Under the pieces are notes generated by a model. That model was not told where the DNA came from. It searched no databases and saw only the letters and a program-made list of their open reading frames with translations. The translations under genes were made by a program, and so were the position numbers. A DNA stretch of 35,082 nt from an uncultured Alphaproteobacteria bacterium (GTDB taxonomy: Bacteria; Pseudomonadota; Alphaproteobacteria; Rs-D84), in the NCBI GenBank assembly GCA_944389345.1, contig CALXMA010000008.1, forward strand, positions 1-35,082. The letters are read 5' to 3'. Of the stretch, positions 3,908-16,424 are shown piece by piece (the first letter of the stretch is position 1; the number at the start of each line of letters is the position of its first letter).

Positions 3908-6328
3908 ATGATGAAAAGACTGCCTGTATGTTTTTTCTTGATTGCGTTTGGTGCGCCGTTTGCATTTGCGGACGGTACCGCGTCGACCATATCGCGCGTG
4001 ATTCCAACGACTGGTACAAATACTAATACATCGGCCGCAACCCAGATTGCGCGTAATGCGACCGTTGCCACCCGTGCCAGTGCATCGCGTACGACGGCGT
4101 CTGGGCCAACGGTTGTACAATCGACACCGACCGCGACAACCGATGAAGATTCTGAAACAGACGCATCCACCACAACGAACAATCGTTCTGTTGTTGGGCG
4201 CACTGCGACAACGACAACATCTGCCACGACGAAAAATGGTGATAATTCCGGGGTTGTGCGTGTTGGTGCGCGTGTTTTGACATTGAATGATGATGACACC
4301 GCGACATCTTCGCCCCGTGGTTCTAATGATGTTCGTACGACAACGGTATCCCGTTCGGTCCAGGTATCTGCCCCGCGTACGGCGCGTGAAAATCTGGATG
4401 CGACGGTTAACACGGTTGGTCGCAATGCCCGGGTAGAGGCATCCAGTATAAACAATAATCCGGCCATTCGTCGTGCGGGACTGACATTACGTCCATCCAC
4501 GGCCGAGGTTGGCGGTCGTGCCACAATTGCCGGCACAGATATCCAGACGGGATCTAATTTGAACACAGACGGCACGGCCCGCACGGTCCAGGCACGCGCC
4601 ACAACAACGACGGTATCGACGGGTACATCTGGGATATCTGGGGCCACGATTACGAATGAATCCATCAGCCAGACCAAAGAACGTATGGATTTAACGTCTG
4701 ATTTGAATGCTTCGTGCCAGCAACAGTATAACGATTGCATGGACCAGTTCTGTGATGTTATCGATGCGAACCAGGGCCGTTGTTCATGTTCTGCGAATTT
4801 GTCCAGTTATTCCCGCGTGGAAGAGGCCGTAACCGATGCCAATAACCAATTGAACGAGGTTGCACAACGTATCCGCTATGTCGGCCTGTCCGCGGATGAA
4901 ATCCGTGCTATTATGAGCGAGACCGAGGCCGAAGAGGCATTGTCTGGTGCGCGCGATACGACGGAAACGCGCAATATGCTGGACGAGATTGAGGCTTTGA
5001 TTCGCGACCCCAGCAGTTCTACATCGTATTCCGGCACCTATGATGGTTTTGGTCTGGACATGGACATAGACTTTACGACGAACATTGCGGATTTGTTCAG
5101 TTTGGATTTCTTGAACACCGGCACGACCAGTTTTTCAAACCTGCGTGGGTCTGAACTGTATCGCGCGGCCAAGAACCGTTGCAATGTCGTTTTGGAACAG
5201 TGTGAACAGGCCGGTGCCAACATTGACCAGATTACGGCGAACTATGATTTGGCGATTGATCGCGATTGTATTGCGTACGAACAGGGTTTGAACAAAATGA
5301 ACGAAACCCTGGTGTCCAATGTGCGCAGTGCGAATTTAATGTTGCAAAAGGCGCGACTGGCGGTTTTACAGAATAAAAACCAATACGATGCCAAGGGCTG
5401 TATTGGTGCGCTGGACGCATGTATGGCGGACGAAATGGTATGTGGTTCGGATTATTCCAAGTGTCTGGACCCAACCAAGCGTTATATTGATGAAAATGGT
5501 GATGTTGTACTGGGCCAAGATATTACGAATATTCGTGATTTTATGGCGGGGTATAATAATGCAAATATTAATTCGGACTTCTTGTCTGATTCATACGGCA
5601 GTGAAACGTACTTTAACGAAGACTATTGCGCCGGCGAAGGTAATGATGGGCGTTGTGTTGTAAAGTATCTGTTGCAGAAAATCGGCACCAAAGAAGACAG
5701 TACCGCCGAAGGTTTATGTCGTCCTGTTTTGGATAAATGCCAGGCATACACATACGATACACGTGGTCGCTATATGCCGTACAATGATATCGTTGTAAAT
5801 TATGTCCAACGTGCAATGGTTAATATCCAGGCGGAACAGCGTCAAATTATATCCGACTATGCGTCTAATTGTATGTTGGATATTGCCAATTGCTATAACC
5901 AACAGGTGACCCAGGTTAACGCATGGTCTTCGAATGCCAGCGTGGAAAGCATATACAAGGTTATGCGTGGTGCGTGCCGAAACGTTGCGTTAACGTGTGC
6001 ATACGCCGTGTTTGACCAAGATACAACCAGTTGTCCCGTTGGTGCGGATGATACATGCATCGAAAGTATTTCTGAAATGTTCTATCAGTCATTGTTGTGC
6101 CCGGATAATTCTGTGTACGATGAAACTTGCCTGAACGAATATAATTCAGACGCGTCCACCTGTGTGAACGAACGTTGCAGATGTTTGTCCGAATATGAAC
6201 GTTGGGGTGCCCAGTGCTTGGCGGATTGTCCGGACAATTCCCGCAGAAATTCGTATGGTACATGTACTTGCAACACGGGATACACGATGCGCAATGGTGT
6301 ATGCGTATCCGACAGCGAAGGTGATTAA
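3908..6328 (+). CDS. Large exported Cys-rich protein with low-complexity N-terminal region (paralog 2)
   Basis: The 806-aa protein begins with a signal peptide (residues 1-21, cleavage likely after FAFA). A Thr/Ser/Ala/Arg-rich low-complexity stretch runs to about residue 265. The first Cys cluster, C270, C277, C282, C292, C294, has exactly the spacing seen in the 768-2993 product. Later blocks also align (N-x-C-N-x-V-L-x2-C; D-C-x-A-Y-E-Q; L-Q-x2-R-L; C-I-x3-L-x-C). The last 60 residues add an EGF-like run of closely spaced Cys (CRC, C-x3-C, CTC, then CVSD) that paralog 1 lacks. The product is probably periplasmic or surface exposed with many disulfides. No enzymatic motif is recognised. Convergent with dnaQ, sharing a terminator. 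Confidence 0.85.
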   Translation: MMKRLPVCFFLIAFGAPFAFADGTASTISRVIPTTGTNTNTSAATQIARNATVATRASASRTTASGPTVVQSTPTATTDEDSETDASTTTNNRSVVGRTATTTTSATTKNGDNSGVVRVGARVLTLNDDDTATSSPRGSNDVRTTTVSRSVQVSAPRTARENLDATVNTVGRNARVEASSINNNPAIRRAGLTLRPSTAEVGGRATIAGTDIQTGSNLNTDGTARTVQARATTTTVSTGTSGISGATITNESISQTKERMDLTSDLNASCQQQYNDCMDQFCDVIDANQGRCSCSANLSSYSRVEEAVTDANNQLNEVAQRIRYVGLSADEIRAIMSETEAEEALSGARDTTETRNMLDEIEALIRDPSSSTSYSGTYDGFGLDMDIDFTTNIADLFSLDFLNTGTTSFSNLRGSELYRAAKNRCNVVLEQCEQAGANIDQITANYDLAIDRDCIAYEQGLNKMNETLVSNVRSANLMLQKARLAVLQNKNQYDAKGCIGALDACMADEMVCGSDYSKCLDPTKRYIDENGDVVLGQDITNIRDFMAGYNNANINSDFLSDSYGSETYFNEDYCAGEGNDGRCVVKYLLQKIGTKEDSTAEGLCRPVLDKCQAYTYDTRGRYMPYNDIVVNYVQRAMVNIQAEQRQIISDYASNCMLDIANCYNQQVTQVNAWSSNASVESIYKVMRGACRNVALTCAYAVFDQDTTSCPVGADDTCIESISEMFYQSLLCPDNSVYDETCLNEYNSDASTCVNERCRCLSEYERWGAQCLADCPDNSRRNSYGTCTCNTGYTMRNGVCVSDSEGD

Positions 6329-9267: not shown

Positions 9268-10563
9268 TTATTTTTTACGAAAAAATCCAACGACAGATTT
9301 TCCGTACCCCGAAAACTTGTTCCACAGTTTCTTTACATCGCCACCGAATTCTTTGCCAAAACTGTCGTTGATACTGCCCCCCAGATTCTTGGCAATTTCA
9401 CTTGTGCGATTGGCCAGATATGCGACCAACAATCCCATCAGCAATGTCGTGATATAGTTATCTGATTCCAGCGTCGGCACCGCCGTTGCCAGGTTTGCAT
9501 CCACCGTCCACGACATTAACGCCATGCACAGCGCAACCAGAATCGACAGCGATACGAAATAAATGGCGGCGTTCACAAAGCGCTGAATCTGATTAGATAA
9601 TGATTCTGGTTTGAACAGCCCCAAAAATCCGTTAAATATATCGCCGACAATACCCTTGTACGATGTTTTGTTTATGGTTTCTGCGATTGCGGTAAACGGC
9701 AACATAAACACGCCCAAGAACAAATCCATAATCACCCCCAGTCCCATCAACGCGAACTTGAACGCGTTATACAGGAACAGTACGACAAACACCGCCCCGA
9801 CCAGCATTGTAAACGCGCTGACCCCGATTCCGGCAATCATCCATTTCCATCCGGCGGCAACCGCGGTTGTAAAGAATCCCGACAGACGTGTCGGCACACA
9901 CAGCATGTTTGCAACCGCGTTCGCGTCTATGATTGCATTTGCCGACGTATTTGCCATGGCGTATTCGCGTATTGCGGTACACGTATCAGGCAATTGTGCC
10001 CCGACCAATCCGACCACGGAATTCAATATCAAATCAGACATATACGTTGCGACGCTGATAATTGGTCCCATAACCCACATAAAAACTTGGGCCGGCCCCT
10101 GGACCAGGATGATAGACCATATTGCGACGACGGCGCCTTTTTTGACCAGGTTCACACCTAAATCTAATGCACTGGAACCCTTGGTCATCATATTGTACGC
10201 TTCGAACATGGTCCACAATATGTACGCCAGAATCATAAATATGATTGCAAATCGCACCAACGAAGAATCCAACACATCGGCCAGATATGACAACGCGTTT
10301 ATCATTGCCATCCCGATTTTAGCCTCAATCGGGACATAATCCGGCACCAGTTGTGCGCGCTGGAATTCTGATTGGAATTCGGTCATATCCCCGCGCAAAG
10401 AATCATTAAATTCGACCATGTTTTGCGGGGTCAGCCAATCACCATAATCACTGATTTCGGTATACGGAACATTACTGGCGGCGCCAATTGCATTTGGCAT
10501 GACACCAACGCCGATGAACACAGCGATAAAAATTTTGGCCAAGATTTTTTTTATTTTAATCAT
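9268..10563 (-). CDS. VirB6/TrbL-like multi-pass inner-membrane protein (cluster gene D)
   Basis: The 431-aa protein has an N-terminal signal (residues 1-28, GAA) and then a soluble stretch with an amphipathic helix. Six or more hydrophobic segments follow, including FAIIFMILAYILWTMF and a long Gly/Ala-rich block, and the C-terminus is Lys-rich (FFRKK). The segment NLVKKGAVVAIWSIILVQ followed by GPIISVATYM aligns with the same transmembrane-plus-Pro block in the four neighbouring proteins. The layout fits VirB6/TrbL, the polytopic inner-membrane channel subunit of type IV secretion systems. Last gene of a four-gene minus operon; its ATG directly follows the stop of the previous gene (TAG-ATG). 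Family assignment is by topology and gene-cluster logic, so moderate. Confidence 0.65.
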   Translation of the reverse strand: MIKIKKILAKIFIAVFIGVGVMPNAIGAASNVPYTEISDYGDWLTPQNMVEFNDSLRGDMTEFQSEFQRAQLVPDYVPIEAKIGMAMINALSYLADVLDSSLVRFAIIFMILAYILWTMFEAYNMMTKGSSALDLGVNLVKKGAVVAIWSIILVQGPAQVFMWVMGPIISVATYMSDLILNSVVGLVGAQLPDTCTAIREYAMANTSANAIIDANAVANMLCVPTRLSGFFTTAVAAGWKWMIAGIGVSAFTMLVGAVFVVLFLYNAFKFALMGLGVIMDLFLGVFMLPFTAIAETINKTSYKGIVGDIFNGFLGLFKPESLSNQIQRFVNAAIYFVSLSILVALCMALMSWTVDANLATAVPTLESDNYITTLLMGLLVAYLANRTSEIAKNLGGSINDSFGKEFGGDVKKLWNKFSGYGKSVVGFFRKK

Positions 10564-11997
10564 CTACTTTTTACCAAACGCCTTGGATATACTTGAAAAT
10601 ATTTGTGTTGGTGCGGACCATATTTTTTTACCCAGTCCCTTGGCCCACTGACCAAAGTCGAATTGTTCTTTGCCCCCGACGGTTAATATGCCCATAACCT
10701 TTGGCTTTATAACCCAGAAATACATCAAGAACAACCCAATCATCATGACCAAGAAATCCCATCCGTCGCGCATAAAATCAAATGCGCCCGGGTATTGCGC
10801 TTCGACCACATCCCGTTGCGTGTTAAAGCATTCGCGGAACTTGCCACCGTCCATTTCGCCATCGACGATGGATACCTGTTCACATGTTGCAAACACATTC
10901 ATCACAGACATTACCTGGGCGTCTGGATTTTGTGGTGCCATTCCCATCATGGGCGGTAATACCGCACTGTACCCGTCAACGGGTCCCGGGAAAAACGAAT
11001 CCGCAGAATAAGACACAATTGCATACGTGATAATAACGGTCAGACTGATTCCAACAATTTGTACCGCGGATTTTACCAGCATATTAATCGCATTTTTTAC
11101 CACGCCCCCGGCCAATGCCCACGTCTGTTCGAACGCGGCCGCGGCCAGAATCAAAGGCAAAAAGATAATTAAAAACACTAATTTGAATACCACAGATAAA
11201 ATCTGGAACGCCAAATCAAATCCAATGACCAAGAACATTAACACCAGCGCCAGTCCCGCAATCCATGTCAGAACACCGCCACCCATTCCCAACCATGCAT
11301 AGTTCATCAGTGAAAAACCGCCCGCGGCCCCGGCCAACATAACACTGTTGATATTGCCCATAACGCACATAAACGGTTGCAGTATCGGATTTAATATGTC
11401 GTCGTTATCTGTGATTGTTGCGCCGGCGCACTGCGACGCTTCATTTACGCCCGTTGCGGCCATAGACAGTTCTGCACCGACAAATAAAACGGGTGTAATG
11501 GTAATATCTGCGACCGTTCGCAACGCACTGGTGCCACCCATTCCTAACGCGCCCATTAATGCGCCAACGATTAAAACACGTGCGCCTTGACGCCATACTT
11601 TATCAAACCACGGCCCCAATGCGATTTTCTTTTCCGATGTATCCAGTTTTGCATTTTCTTTGGACGCGTCATAAATATATTTTGCGGTATATACGAACAA
11701 GAACACCCCGAACCCGACGGCCACCAAAATCCATATATTATCGACCATCGCGTCCCAGAACAATTTGGTTGCATCACCAATAACCGCGAATAATTCTTGG
11801 ACATAACGGCACAAGAAACATCCATTTACATTTGCGACGTTCCCATCGGTTGCACCGATTGCGGTCATAAAGTTTCCCATACTGGTATATGTGATGGCGG
11901 TACCACTGATGGACGAAGACAAATACCAAACGCCGACCCCCAACGCAATTGCGCCCATAATCAATTGGATGGCAAACATAATCAGTCGTGCTTTCAC
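10564..11997 (-). CDS. VirB6/TrbL-like multi-pass inner-membrane protein with N-terminal CxxC (cluster gene C)
   Basis: The 477-aa protein starts with a membrane anchor (residues 5-27). A periplasmic-type stretch with the pair C60-F-L-C63 follows, then about seven hydrophobic segments. PWFDKVWRQGARVLIVGALMG followed by an ITPVLFVGAELS block matches the PW...VL...EPV block of genes B and E. The strongly hydrophobic centre (LVFLIIFLPLILAAAAF) and C-terminus KAFGKK are also shared features. It starts with GTG, and its GTGA overlaps the stop of gene B by 4 nt, indicating translational coupling. Predicted to be a type IV secretion inner-membrane channel component; function inferred from topology and paralogy. 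Confidence 0.65.
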   Translation of the reverse strand: MKARLIMFAIQLIMGAIALGVGVWYLSSSISGTAITYTSMGNFMTAIGATDGNVANVNGCFLCRYVQELFAVIGDATKLFWDAMVDNIWILVAVGFGVFLFVYTAKYIYDASKENAKLDTSEKKIALGPWFDKVWRQGARVLIVGALMGALGMGGTSALRTVADITITPVLFVGAELSMAATGVNEASQCAGATITDNDDILNPILQPFMCVMGNINSVMLAGAAGGFSLMNYAWLGMGGGVLTWIAGLALVLMFLVIGFDLAFQILSVVFKLVFLIIFLPLILAAAAFEQTWALAGGVVKNAINMLVKSAVQIVGISLTVIITYAIVSYSADSFFPGPVDGYSAVLPPMMGMAPQNPDAQVMSVMNVFATCEQVSIVDGEMDGGKFRECFNTQRDVVEAQYPGAFDFMRDGWDFLVMMIGLFLMYFWVIKPKVMGILTVGGKEQFDFGQWAKGLGKKIWSAPTQIFSSISKAFGKK

Positions 11998-13187
11998 TTT
12001 TTACCTTTTTCGCCACCTTCACCGCCAGACAGTATAACCTTGCCCAGTTTTTTTGTTGCCTCTACCACATTAGTGGTTAATTTCATTGCGTCATCGGCCA
12101 ACTGTTCACTCAGACTGTTTTCTGTGGATGTGCCGAACGAATCCAGTACCATGGATGTAACCTGTGGAATCTGGCTGTATATAAAGTTTAACACATACAC
12201 CAATATAATGCATCCACCCAATGTCATAGCCCCCAGATTATCGGTGGATAAATCGCCGGCAAATACATTGCCACTGGTAATCAATTGCATTAAATCCGCA
12301 CTGGATTGTCCCGGTTCTGAAAAGAATTTCGCAATAATCGTCATTATAACGGTGTATGTCAACACCGCCGACACCAACGCAATAATCGCATTAATCAGTT
12401 TTTTGAATTGTCCAACGCCAACCGTCTTGCCCAGTCCTGATAACCACGCGGGCGCATTTCCACCCTTGAACCCGACCAGCATTAATGACAACGGAAAGAA
12501 AAACGCAAAAAACGCCATCGCCACGATTATATCCGCGAAATAGAAACAAAACCGCACGAATAACTTAAAGAATCCATAAAACAGATACAGCCCAATAAAA
12601 AATAAAATAATATGTTTAATCAGCGACCCGATACCCAGCAATGCATCCAAAGAAAACGCGCGGTCCATAACGGCGATGCCTAATTTCATATAGGATTGAA
12701 ATTGGGTAATGGTTGTTTTCATCAACATTATAATCGTATCGCGCAGTTGTGGCCGATAAAATCCATCATCGGACATTTCTGATGGTACATAGGTAACTTG
12801 TTCGTTAATAGTATCTGTGTCCATTTGCAACATGTTTTGCGTGTACACCAACGCGATATTTGCAACAGGTTCAAACGTAACAGATGTAATAAAACGTGGC
12901 AGAACAACGCCCATACTCAAAAACGCCAACGACACCAAAGAATTTATCAACACGGGTCGCAAAGATTTCTGGTACCACGGATCGCTGATATTGCTTTTCA
13001 TATTTTGCCAAACAGCGTTGATGATATAGAACGCCATCAGCACACAGAACAATATCCCACAGAAAATAACGAATTGTCCGTACACCGCCCCGGCCGCATC
13101 AGATACGACCTGGAACAGACGATCGAACACCGGGCAACCCCAACATTGCACGGACGAATCAACCAAAGAATTCATAAATCCGTTCAT
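11994..13187 (-). CDS. VirB6/TrbL-like multi-pass inner-membrane protein with N-terminal CxxC (cluster gene B)
   Basis: The 397-aa protein carries C15-W-G-C18 near its N-terminus. About six transmembrane segments follow (for example IFCGILFCVLMAFYIINAVW). The signature PWYQKSLRPVLINSLVSLAFL, then LPRFITSVTFEPVANIALVY, matches LPRLLTSVVIEPVFNVGLSL of gene E. The C-terminus is charged and Gly-rich (GGEGGEKGKK). No cleavable signal is obvious. Its ATGA overlaps the stop of gene A by 4 nt. Likely a VirB6/TrbL-type subunit; which secretion system it serves cannot be seen here because no VirB4, VirB8, VirB9, VirB10 or VirD4 homologue is in the window. Confidence 0.65.
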   Translation of the reverse strand: MNGFMNSLVDSSVQCWGCPVFDRLFQVVSDAAGAVYGQFVIFCGILFCVLMAFYIINAVWQNMKSNISDPWYQKSLRPVLINSLVSLAFLSMGVVLPRFITSVTFEPVANIALVYTQNMLQMDTDTINEQVTYVPSEMSDDGFYRPQLRDTIIMLMKTTITQFQSYMKLGIAVMDRAFSLDALLGIGSLIKHIILFFIGLYLFYGFFKLFVRFCFYFADIIVAMAFFAFFFPLSLMLVGFKGGNAPAWLSGLGKTVGVGQFKKLINAIIALVSAVLTYTVIMTIIAKFFSEPGQSSADLMQLITSGNVFAGDLSTDNLGAMTLGGCIILVYVLNFIYSQIPQVTSMVLDSFGTSTENSLSEQLADDAMKLTTNVVEATKKLGKVILSGGEGGEKGKK

Positions 13188-14479
13188 TTCTTTTTAATCC
13201 ACCCAAACGCCTTGCCCAGTGTTGTACCAATTTTTTTCGCATTCCCCAGTGTTTTTGTCGCATCGCCTTTGACCTGTTTATACAGATTGTCCATACCCTT
13301 GCCGACATAAGAATCCAGTTGCTGGCGTGTCATATCAAATATTTTGAACATCAAATAGAATGTCAATATAGACGACAGCCACAGTATAGAATGTTCGCCA
13401 AATCCCAACGCAGAATTTGCGACCTGGGGCACATTTGACGACGCACTGCCACCGGCGGCGACAACAAACACAGATGAATTCCATTGGAACAAAGATTTAA
13501 CAATCGCCAGATTTACGCACAATATGAACGCACAGGCAATCATAGTAATAACAACTTTTTGTAATGCCTTGGTAATTCCGCTGAATGCGGGCCATATATC
13601 GAACCATTTATCATTCGGCTTAACGACGTACGCCAACACTTGGAACGGGTACAGAACTAATGACATTCCGAATTGGAAAATCGCCTGGATAATCAGCATC
13701 GCCATAAACAAATTACTGGCCACAAAGGTAAATATTAAAAATATCCCAGTTATAACGTTCAAGAAATCTTCCCCGCCATGCGGTATCAGTGTTATCAAAC
13801 CACGCAACCCGCGGTTCAGGAAATCAAAACCGCGCTTTACAATCTGGTTGTTTGCATGGGAAATATCAGATACGGGTTGCACCAAGAATTCGCAACTTTC
13901 CTGGGAAATCCATCCCTGTTGAATTATCGATGGGGGACATTCTACGTCTGGGGCGTGCATTCCCGCGTCGTTAATGGATTTTGTTATGCTTTCTGTATAC
14001 AGTGCCCCGAATTGCAGAAACGGATTAATTAACCATTCGGTCAGATACACGGGTTTTAATTGCAACAAAACGGTCGCGGCAATGATTGCGCGAATTCCGG
14101 GTTTCAACAGGTTTGTTGCGATTGTCATCCCGCTGACCCCACCGGCCATTTCGCCGCCGCCCGAAAAACCAAAGAACGAAACCCATACTTTTGGGAAATA
14201 CATTTTCAACAGGTACAATGCCATAGATACGGCCAAGAATCCCCACACCAATATGTATATAATCCCGTCGCCATTTCCGACAAAAAATTCGTATCCACCG
14301 GTTGCCACCGCCAACAACGCGTCCAAAATTACCGGTATAATCGGGCTCAGGTTTAATGCGTCCACCAAACCATACTGTGTCGCCGCCATCGCATCACACG
14401 GCATCAGCACGGCCATCGCGAACACCACCGCCATTGCGCGAAACGCGTATGAAAAAAATCTGGACGATTTCAGAAACAT
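13184..14479 (-). CDS. VirB6/TrbL-like multi-pass inner-membrane protein (cluster gene A)
   Basis: The 431-aa protein opens the minus operon. It has a signal peptide (residues 1-33, DAMA-ATQ) and a Gly-rich loop (FFGFSGGGEMAGGVSG). NLLKPGIRAIIAATVLLQ is then followed by an INPF block that aligns with the EPV block of genes B and E. Several more hydrophobic segments follow, and the Lys-rich amphipathic tail ends KAFGWIKKK. It lacks the CxxC motif of B, C and E; the Cys residues it has (CPP, ESCEF) lie in a central periplasmic-type loop. The ATG is about 26 nt after an extended -10 and follows AGAGA. VirB6/TrbL-like by topology and cluster membership. Confidence 0.65.
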   Translation of the reverse strand: MFLKSSRFFSYAFRAMAVVFAMAVLMPCDAMAATQYGLVDALNLSPIIPVILDALLAVATGGYEFFVGNGDGIIYILVWGFLAVSMALYLLKMYFPKVWVSFFGFSGGGEMAGGVSGMTIATNLLKPGIRAIIAATVLLQLKPVYLTEWLINPFLQFGALYTESITKSINDAGMHAPDVECPPSIIQQGWISQESCEFLVQPVSDISHANNQIVKRGFDFLNRGLRGLITLIPHGGEDFLNVITGIFLIFTFVASNLFMAMLIIQAIFQFGMSLVLYPFQVLAYVVKPNDKWFDIWPAFSGITKALQKVVITMIACAFILCVNLAIVKSLFQWNSSVFVVAAGGSASSNVPQVANSALGFGEHSILWLSSILTFYLMFKIFDMTRQQLDSYVGKGMDNLYKQVKGDATKTLGNAKKIGTTLGKAFGWIKKK

Positions 14480-14505
14480 TCTCTCTTTATTAATTTATCT
14501 TTTCA

Positions 14506-14514
14506 ATTATATCA
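14506..14514 (-). promoter_or_regulatory. Extended -10 promoter of the four-gene VirB6-like operon
   Basis: On the minus strand TGATATAAT occupies 14514 down to 14506. The predicted start is near 14499, giving a leader of about 20 nt that contains AAGAGA before the ATG at 14479. It lies back to back with the -10 of the divergent gene E, so the two promoters may compete or be co-regulated. Confidence 0.65.
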
Positions 14515-14530
14515 CATTTAATGCAAAATA

Positions 14531-14539
14531 TGATATACT
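14531..14539 (+). promoter_or_regulatory. Extended -10 promoter of cluster gene E
   Basis: TGATATACT with TATACT at 14534-14539. The likely ATG at 14548 begins only 8 nt further on, so the transcript is predicted to start at or within about two bases of the start codon (leaderless). Confidence 0.6.
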
Positions 14540-14547
14540 TAAAAGCA

Positions 14548-15837
14548 ATGAATAGACTAAAAAAGTTCTGGATAGTTTTTTTGTCTTTCCTGCCATTTTC
14601 CGCGGGGGCGGTTGCGCCGTTTGTGGTTGGTGCGATTGCGGGCGTGGGTGTTATCGCGGGTTTTTCTATATACAGGACGGTTGCGCCCGTTAATATGGCG
14701 GACGCGTTGAATTTCTTTACCAGTTGTTGGTCGTGCCAGATGTTTTCAGATATAATGGCGACGATGTCTGGTTTGGTACCGCGTGTGTACGATGCGCTGG
14801 GGTCTGTGATATTGCCATTTTCTGCGGGACTGTTGGCGATATGGTTTGCGTGGAAAATATTTTCTGGGTTTATTAATTCCAAGATAGAAGAACCATGGTC
14901 ATTGACCAGTGATTTTGGAACCAAGGTATTAAAATTGGCCTTTGTTGGTGCGCTGTTGATGATACCGTTGCCCCGCCTGTTGACATCTGTGGTCATAGAA
15001 CCGGTATTTAATGTTGGATTGTCGCTGAACAGGGCGGTTGCCGGCAACGACGAATTTGCAAAATGTGTGGTTGCGACGGCCATTGCCGATCCCACGGTGG
15101 CCAGTGTTGAATCCGCGTCCGCCGGGGCGTTTTCGCCACGTCTGCGTCATAATCTTTCGTGCGAGGTTGCAAACGTTCATCAAATGACGGGATTGGGGAT
15201 GACGGTTGGATGGACGATGTTGAATATGGCGTTTAACGAAGAATATATGCATAAAATGATGTGGGACATACCGATTTTCCCGAACGTTCCGATTTTCTTT
15301 GCGGGTTTGTTGATATTGGTGCTGTTCTTTTTCGCACTGTTGCCGGTCCCGTTGTATTTTTTAGAGGTATTTATAAAACTGTCCATGGATTTGATAATGT
15401 TGCCATTTATGCTGATGTCATGGCTGTTCAAGGGATGGGGCATATTCCCCAATGGGGGACGTAATATCAAGAACATGATAAACGATGTGGTGCGCGCAAC
15501 GGCCGGTATTGCCATGGTTGGCGTGTTTATAACATTTGCTGTTATGTTTTTGAATGCGGTATTTGGTCGTTGGGACGGTGCGGACAGATTGGCGTTGGCA
15601 TTGTCTGAAAACGATGCGACGATATTGATGGACGGCCTGATGATGCGCAACGACAGTATTATAACGATTCTGTTGATGGGAATATTTATTGCGATGTTTA
15701 TGACAATGATACCCGCGCTGGTCAAGACGTTGTTCGCCCAGGTTGAAATTCCCACATCATTTTACGAATCGACACGTAAAAATCTGGACATTATGTGGAA
15801 AAACCTGAAAAAATGGTACGCCACATTAAAAAAATAA
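14548..15837 (+). CDS. VirB6/TrbL-like multi-pass inner-membrane protein with N-terminal CxxC (cluster gene E)
   Basis: The protein has 429 aa from the ATG at 14548. An upstream in-frame ATG at 14521 overlaps the -10 element and is unlikely. It starts with a signal or anchor (residues 5-21, FSAGAVA). C60-W-S-C63 sits in the same place as in gene C, followed by PWSLTSDFGTKVLKLAFVGALLM and LPRLLTSVVIEPV, clearly homologous to gene B. About seven hydrophobic segments follow, including LLILVLFFFALLPVPLYFL, and the tail is basic (WYATLKK). It is the only member on the plus strand, divergent from A-D. Likely a type IV secretion inner-membrane channel subunit; this is inference. Confidence 0.65.
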   Translation: MNRLKKFWIVFLSFLPFSAGAVAPFVVGAIAGVGVIAGFSIYRTVAPVNMADALNFFTSCWSCQMFSDIMATMSGLVPRVYDALGSVILPFSAGLLAIWFAWKIFSGFINSKIEEPWSLTSDFGTKVLKLAFVGALLMIPLPRLLTSVVIEPVFNVGLSLNRAVAGNDEFAKCVVATAIADPTVASVESASAGAFSPRLRHNLSCEVANVHQMTGLGMTVGWTMLNMAFNEEYMHKMMWDIPIFPNVPIFFAGLLILVLFFFALLPVPLYFLEVFIKLSMDLIMLPFMLMSWLFKGWGIFPNGGRNIKNMINDVVRATAGIAMVGVFITFAVMFLNAVFGRWDGADRLALALSENDATILMDGLMMRNDSIITILLMGIFIAMFMTMIPALVKTLFAQVEIPTSFYESTRKNLDIMWKNLKKWYATLKK

Positions 15838-15905: not shown

Positions 15906-16424
15906 ATGAAGCAGTTTCCGATTCTTTATTGGCCACGAAAAACAACCGCTGATACCGACTATCAATTGGCGCGCAAGGTTATAAACAGTGCGACGGGTGT
16001 AATGCCGGACGTTTTGACGGGTGATTTGGATTTGATGGGTATATTATCTGCGAATCCGAATGCGACGGTATATTATCCCGTGTTTTGTGAATCTACGGGT
16101 TGGTGGGGCGAATTATTGGGTGGCGATGCGATTGTAATTGACAAGATGATTATATCACCAGAATGTCAATTAATGGTTATTGAATCCGAACGCACTGCGA
16201 CGAAATCGGCACGCAGTGGAAAAAATCAACTGTTGGCGGCGGAAATTCGCCCGACCAGCGGTTTTTTCAAGAAAATGAATTCTGGGATTGCGACGGTTTC
16301 TGATATGTTGGCGACGGATGCGGGCACGATATTGGCGTTGTTCACCGGGAAAAGCCAGACACAATTCATAAATATTTTGGAATCTACGGGCAATTCGTAT
16401 TTGGGCTGTATTGGCCGATACTAA
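15906..16424 (+). CDS. Hypothetical protein, 172 aa
   Basis: I do not recognise this protein. It lacks a signal peptide and clear transmembrane segments. It starts MKQFPILYWPRK, has a central YYPVFCESTGWWGELLGG stretch and a C-terminal half with possible amphipathic helices, and contains three Cys in all. Base composition matches its neighbours, so recent transfer is not indicated. It lies between cluster gene E and rpmE, with its own -10 directly upstream. It could belong functionally to either neighbour; nothing in the sequence decides. Confidence 0.7.
   Translation: MKQFPILYWPRKTTADTDYQLARKVINSATGVMPDVLTGDLDLMGILSANPNATVYYPVFCESTGWWGELLGGDAIVIDKMIISPECQLMVIESERTATKSARSGKNQLLAAEIRPTSGFFKKMNSGIATVSDMLATDAGTILALFTGKSQTQFINILESTGNSYLGCIGRY

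Follow-up and report, generated by a model that had tools for sequence, protein, structure and literature searches.

Why would a bacterium with an 894-kb genome keep five divergent relatives of VirB6, a protein that R388 has in one version and that belongs to the type IV secretion system (T4SS), a machine for injecting proteins or DNA, and how might five of them work? The question is raised by positions 9268 to 15837 of the window, which is the whole stretch of DNA analysed here (35,082 nucleotides) and an entire contig (C8) of a 98.8% complete genome from a Candidatus Enterousia species in the order Rs-D84. Five adjacent genes there, A to E, encode membrane proteins that are homologous to one another, and bridging profiles and predicted folds support their identity as divergent VirB6/TrbL paralogues. 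We put the probability at about two in three that they are inner-membrane and periplasmic subunits of a P-like T4SS that act together, most likely as a hetero-oligomer. Proteins close to E are known from Candidatus Enterousia species and from uncultured Alphaproteobacteria living in animal guts. As described in the available text of a 2025 study (PMC12306168), members of Rs-D84, including Enterousia, have reduced genomes, are likely obligate symbionts or parasites and probably depend on a partner cell. Other loci, genomes and families are cited below by our L, G and f labels.

Results

The five proteins are homologous

Four of the genes form an operon on the minus strand, with D (13184..14479, 431 aa) first, followed by C (11994..13187, 397 aa), B (10564..11997, 477 aa) and A (9268..10563, 431 aa). 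D and C overlap by 4 nt, as do C and B, and B and A abut. E (14521..15837, plus strand, 438 aa) is divergent and starts 41 bp from D. The gap between them (14480..14520), given its position between divergent genes, presumably carries the start signals for both transcription units. An earlier sequence-only reading had described five adjacent open reading frames (ORFs) of 397-477 aa with these coordinates and overlaps, a divergent fifth gene and a Lys-rich C-terminal tail common to all five proteins, and was accurate on each point. The block LPRFITSVTFEPV is located in the 11994-13187 protein (C), which also has a CWGC motif near its N-terminus and is the paralogue closest to E. The block LPRLLTSVVIEPV is located in E, where its core, P-L-P-R...I-x-P, is invariant across 20 orthologues.

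Single-sequence searches connected C with E at 4e-13 (phmmer), B with E at 3e-8 and A with B at 7e-6 (both blastp), and B with C at 1e-4; the paralogues are mostly 20-25% identical. Profiles made from Enterousia sequences only connected most pairs, with C-E the best (6e-12) and D-A at 2e-7, and gave no B-D or C-D link. The order-wide position profiles each matched the four remaining proteins of the array at E <= 2.4e-4 (most at 1e-9 to 1e-32), A being matched by the rsC, rsD and rsA profiles. As controls, these profiles were also run against six other polytopic membrane proteins and against reversed sequences, and gave no match at E <= 10. Because the order-wide profiles match all five proteins and the controls give nothing, the similarity exceeds composition and is true homology, which bears out the earlier claim of a shared relationship.

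Conserved cysteines are found in several of the proteins. In alignments of 24 Enterousia rows, Cys195, Cys222 and Cys346 are invariant in A, and a CxxC plus four more cysteines (60, 63, 190, 211, 372 and 390) are invariant in B. E has four invariant cysteines, at 69, 72, 182 and 214. The invariant CxxC and further cysteines in B and E suggest disulphides in the periplasmic parts. Between the window and L041, dN/dS (NG86) is 0.05-0.13 for the five genes, with synonymous sites near saturation, indicating that the genes are under purifying selection.

Bridging relatives and predicted folds point to VirB6/TrbL

The connection to VirB6/TrbL was found through relatives of the five proteins. Of 50 array members, 16 matched PF04610 at E <= 0.01 (best 2.3e-11), and in another Rs-D84 family the protein at position E (L066 12022-13677) scored 28.1 bits (2e-6), above the curated cut-off. 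The Rs-D84 position profiles also match arrays in other alphaproteobacterial families, with E-values down to 1e-42, and many of these match PF04610. AlphaFold models were made for D and E. The best Protein Data Bank (PDB) match of the D model (pLDDT 66.5) is R388 TrwI/VirB6 (E 7.8e-4, probability 1.00), and TrwI/VirB6 chains of R388 make up all of its first eight matches. For the E model (pLDDT 57.7), the top two PDB matches are again R388 TrwI/VirB6 (probabilities 1.00 and 0.99, best E 0.028), and such chains account for 7 of the first 10. The fold search thus returned R388 TrwI/VirB6 first for both models. The VirB6/TrbL homology that had been proposed from topology is therefore upheld through bridging relatives and the folds of D and E, and not through a direct PF04610 match of any window protein. 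The sequence-only reading had also labelled the set a secretion channel. This reflects an older view, and the solved structure is that of a pentameric stalk base with its mass mostly in the periplasm (PMC9259494, PMC12857230).

Like R388 TrwI and A. tumefaciens VirB6, the five proteins have a polytopic core, and their genome encodes the partner proteins of a T4SS. They differ in being five divergent copies instead of one, in having conserved CWxC/CxxC motifs and further Cys pairs, and in being encoded away from the other T4SS genes.

The rest of the system is dispersed in the genome

Family searches for the remaining T4SS parts found VirB3, VirB4, VirB8, VirB9, VirB10, VirB11 and VirD4 on other contigs. 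VirB4 is of the TrwK/VirB4 family, nearest to R388 TrwK (1e-35), and occurs once here, as it does almost throughout the order. Directly upstream of it lies a VirB3-like gene that scores 23.7 bits against PF05101, just below the cut-off of 23.9. VirB8, VirB9 and VirB10 are consecutive (L063 7021-11784). There are two VirB8-like genes (two PF04335 matches), VirB9 is a CagX protein, and the VirB11-like ATPase has 333 aa. A VirB4 of the TrwK/VirB4 family that adjoins VirB3, and the VirB8-VirB9-VirB10 order, are features of P-type (VirB/Trw-like) systems. Since VirB3-VirB4, VirB8-VirB9-VirB10, VirB11 and VirD4 sit on other contigs, the array is part of a dispersed P-like T4SS. The sequence-only reading had seen no other Vir genes near the array, and those it named for a genome search, VirB4, VirB8-B10 and VirD4, are all present elsewhere. 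A separate observation is a gene directly 3' of VirB4 (L032 17141-17761) for a secreted 206-aa protein with an HEDEH metallopeptidase-like motif.

These data also bear on whether the five proteins have anything to do with secretion. They could be unrelated or transporter-like polytopic proteins that resemble one another by composition, and Pfam, NCBIfam and PADLOC scans of the five indeed gave no match. This explanation is already contradicted by the clean controls, the bridging PF04610 matches, the fold matches and the other T4SS genes of the genome, and we give it next to no credence.

The array is kept as a unit in Rs-D84

A, B, C and D are present in 23 of 23 Enterousia loci, with A cut by the contig end in L056. 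E is also present in all 23, although contig ends cut it in L056 and L059 and it was found in L045 by a tblastn match only. In related genomes all five ORFs are uninterrupted and conserved. Nine complete arrays from three further Rs-D84 families (L066, L069, L071, L072, L073, L074, L079, L080 and L084) each consist of five same-strand genes that read E-D-C-B-A; D in L073 and A in L074 were assigned by order and tree, not by the first profile. Orthologues of C were also found in f5 and f6. In the other families E comes first and shares the strand of the four genes that follow; in Enterousia it is therefore inverted.

Across 114 genomes of the order, B, the best conserved position across families, was detected in 110 (profile A3), and VirB4 likewise in 110. 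At the family level, a family-level profile detected D in 93 of 96 genomes, and B is present in the same 93. B and D are missing together in G022, G469 and G471, and G022 is also without E. Retention is thus all-or-none, with assembly gaps possible for the three array-less genomes. As a separate observation, G058 contains three copies of B and D on contigs C5, C16 and C17, representing either a recent array duplication or a mixed assembly.

This pattern of retention bears on the idea that the paralogues are isoforms, each building its own homopentamer and called on at different times according to the cargo, the partner or the conditions. R388 VirB6 is homopentameric (PMC9259494), the paralogues have diverged very far, and E has its own transcription unit in the window and lies on a separate contig (L086) in G068, all of which would suit isoforms. 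Over so deep a divergence, however, isoforms would be expected to drop out singly. In 96 of 96 family genomes B and D instead share one fate, present or absent as a pair, and the complete arrays of the other families contain all five genes. We therefore consider independent homopentamers unlikely.

The genes encode proteins of up to 986 aa in other Rs-D84 families, and the range within the order is about 390-986 aa. The much smaller size that the sequence-only reading noted in comparison with Rickettsiales is thus real for the window proteins and is a trait of their family.

M23 fusions suggest unlike periplasmic tasks

In three arrays a peptidoglycan-hydrolase domain, an M23 peptidase, is fused to one VirB6: L079 4540-7500, at position A, L095 6726-9818 and L096 3974-7501. 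The L095 and L096 proteins also match TrbL. The domain sits at the N-terminus in one lineage but inside the protein in Rs-D84, so the fusions probably arose independently. Fusion to a single member suggests that array members take on unlike periplasmic tasks.

Such fusions would also fit a scheme in which no more than one or two members of the set are true VirB6 proteins and the rest are accessory to the same machine, serving as a VirB5-like tip of the stalk, as a dock for pilin, as carriers of peptidoglycan hydrolases, or as effectors or immunity-like partners. The spread of sizes within the order and the lack of an identified VirB5 or VirB2 gene point the same way. Against it, the membrane core is common to all five, and D, which is among the more divergent, still has a VirB6-like fold in its model. 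We judge an accessory role for most of the five to be rather improbable.

The five-gene array probably arose separately from that of Rickettsiales

Five tandem VirB6 genes (rvhB6a-e) are known from Rickettsia (PMC2653234). For comparison, Rickettsiales-type genomes were recognised by their VirB3-B4-VirB6 gene order and two VirB4 copies, not by taxon name. In the VirB4 tree, Rs-D84 forms one clade (100/99), which groups with further multi-VirB6 lineages (98/99) and not with the Rickettsiales-type sequences. Rickettsiales-type VirB6 proteins match one another strongly, whereas the Rs-D84 profiles match them at 4e-4 at best and mostly not at 0.01; the same profiles match the arrays of the other lineages at 1e-10 to 1e-42. 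The system thus falls in a clade of small-genome alphaproteobacterial systems separate from the Rickettsiales type (rvh).

The multi-VirB6 arrays of these other lineages (f27, f53, f78, f95, f8 and f16) are of the same VirB6 subfamily and the same VirB4 clade, with VirB4 identities of about 35-55%. They differ in having 3-5 genes per array, larger proteins and paralogues that branch apart from those of Rs-D84, in carrying M23 fusions in f53 and, in one of the lineages, in a VirB10 with beta-flower repeats. In the array-protein tree, which has modest deep support and several long branches, a branch (SH-aLRT 94) sets the other lineages to one side, and the Rs-D84 proteins group by position (9 changes, against a shuffled mean of 34.8). 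As the proteins cluster by position and do not interleave with the paralogues of other lineages, the tree places the divergence of the five before the split of the Rs-D84 families. The E-D-C-B-A order, common to the families, is likewise ancient. The best matches of the B profile in the other lineages are the short, lipoprotein-like member of their arrays. A positional descent common to Rs-D84 and these lineages was considered for that reason and finds no support in the tree.

Two further observations concern genes near or alongside these arrays. A VirB10-type protein (L068 9015-14000) of 1661 aa or more has 13 five-fold beta-flower repeats before its TrbI domain; its genome also has a VirB6 array of five genes. 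Beside the VirB6 arrays of several lineages lies a gene for a 750-1060 aa protein with a common '...FINIFRQL...' N-terminal region and no Pfam family (L067 5165-8350, L096 468-2711, L099 15265-16978, L100 14475-17257 and L101 1-1565).

Is the Enterousia array then a version of the rvh array, expanded in a common ancestor? Both have five tandem VirB6-type genes, two VirB8 genes, a dispersed T4SS and a reduced genome (PMC2653234, PMC11077975). However, rvh systems have two VirB4 copies and an array beside VirB3-B4, whereas Enterousia has one VirB4 and an array away from VirB3-B4. The rvh VirB6 proteins are also larger (about 670-1150 aa against 397-477 aa), and the VirB4 and VirB6 proteins are of other lineages. 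Within the array family, moreover, the Rs-D84 paralogues keep apart even from those of the related lineages. Shared ancestry of the two expansions is thus very improbable. Since the VirB4 and VirB6 trees set the system apart from rvh, the two groups probably expanded to five copies in parallel. The sequence-only reading had offered a separate or ancestral version of the rvh set; the separate origin is supported by the VirB4 tree and the VirB6 profiles, and the ancestral one found no support. Multiple VirB6 proteins in one system are also a feature of the intracellular pathogen Ehrlichia chaffeensis, whose genes are of the Rickettsiales type and whose four VirB6 paralogues are reportedly expressed and interact (Bao et al. 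2009).

Neighbouring genes

A 172-aa gene directly 3' of E (15906..16424, plus strand) is conserved at this place in Enterousia, with the same position in L043, L060, L061 and L076, and is possibly associated with the array; it gave no significant Pfam or PADLOC match. On the other side of the array, the window encodes two long Cys-rich proteins on the plus strand (768-2993 and 3908-6328, with 28 and 33 Cys). They have signal-like N-termini and Ser/Thr/Arg-rich stretches, are relatives of one another (1e-6 to 1e-8) and match no Pfam family. The 3908-6328 protein has the same place next to the array in other Enterousia. As candidate parts of the system, the two proteins have nothing in their favour beyond proximity. 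In one other Rs-D84 family, a D-Ala-D-Ala dipeptidase (M15) gene adjoins the VirB6 arrays (L066 2128-2838 and L069 3806-4516). A conserved divergent block of four genes, encoding about 450-507, 340-370, 187 and 147 aa, lies beside the f4 arrays (L069 15556-19115; also L066, L071 and L084).

Discussion

In R388, VirB6 forms a homopentamer at the base of the stalk, with two inner-membrane helices and five proposed sites of VirB2 assembly (PMC9259494), and Legionella DotA is also pentameric (PMC12857230). The pentameric state of R388 VirB6, together with five paralogues that are retained jointly and do not interchange, suggests a hetero-oligomer, perhaps a heteropentamer, at the stalk base. The five paralogues would take the place of the single VirB6, and the subunits may have different roles, such as docking of pilin or VirB5, gating and opening of the peptidoglycan. 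That the five work together in one machine we infer from this comparison. Such a machine would probably serve contact with a partner cell. A stricter version, in which Rs-D84 has replaced the homopentamer by an obligate heteropentamer with one copy of each paralogue and five different faces, is drawn by analogy with R388, and we hold it only tentatively, as possible though doubtful.

Several observations weigh against the five acting as joint subunits of a P-like T4SS. None of the window proteins matched PF04610 directly at E <= 1, nor did any other protein of the genome, and searching the PDB by sequence with a profile built from the 50 array members returned no VirB6. The E and D models are of low confidence, with best-match TM-scores of 0.35/0.49 and 0.34/0.49, respectively. 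G022, G469 and G471 lack the array and have an intact VirB4, so the array could be dispensable, or these assemblies could have gaps. Family searches of the genome, which did not extend to relaxases, identified no gene for VirB2, VirB5 or VirB7. Finally, arrays of three, four or five genes occur in related lineages, and five is not fixed outside Rs-D84. Subunit identity can therefore be divided in different ways, and the number five is not forced.

Within the accessible open-access literature, we found no description of this array or of a T4SS in Enterousia or Rs-D84, and nothing on VirB6 heteropentamers or on VirB6 in connection with Micavibrio or Holosporales. The available text of the 2025 study of the order (PMC12306168) makes no mention of secretion and leaves the group's means of contact unknown. 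The T4SS described here is a candidate for that contact machine.

Rickettsiales are not alone in having multiplied VirB6: gut bacteria with tiny genomes, whose T4SS is of a separate lineage, did likewise, and exactly five genes were kept together through the divergence of the Rs-D84 families. The array turns into a testable question why the T4SSs of symbionts multiply VirB6, and whether the count mirrors the five seats of the VirB6 ring. If it does, the machine may contain a fivefold ring built of unlike parts.

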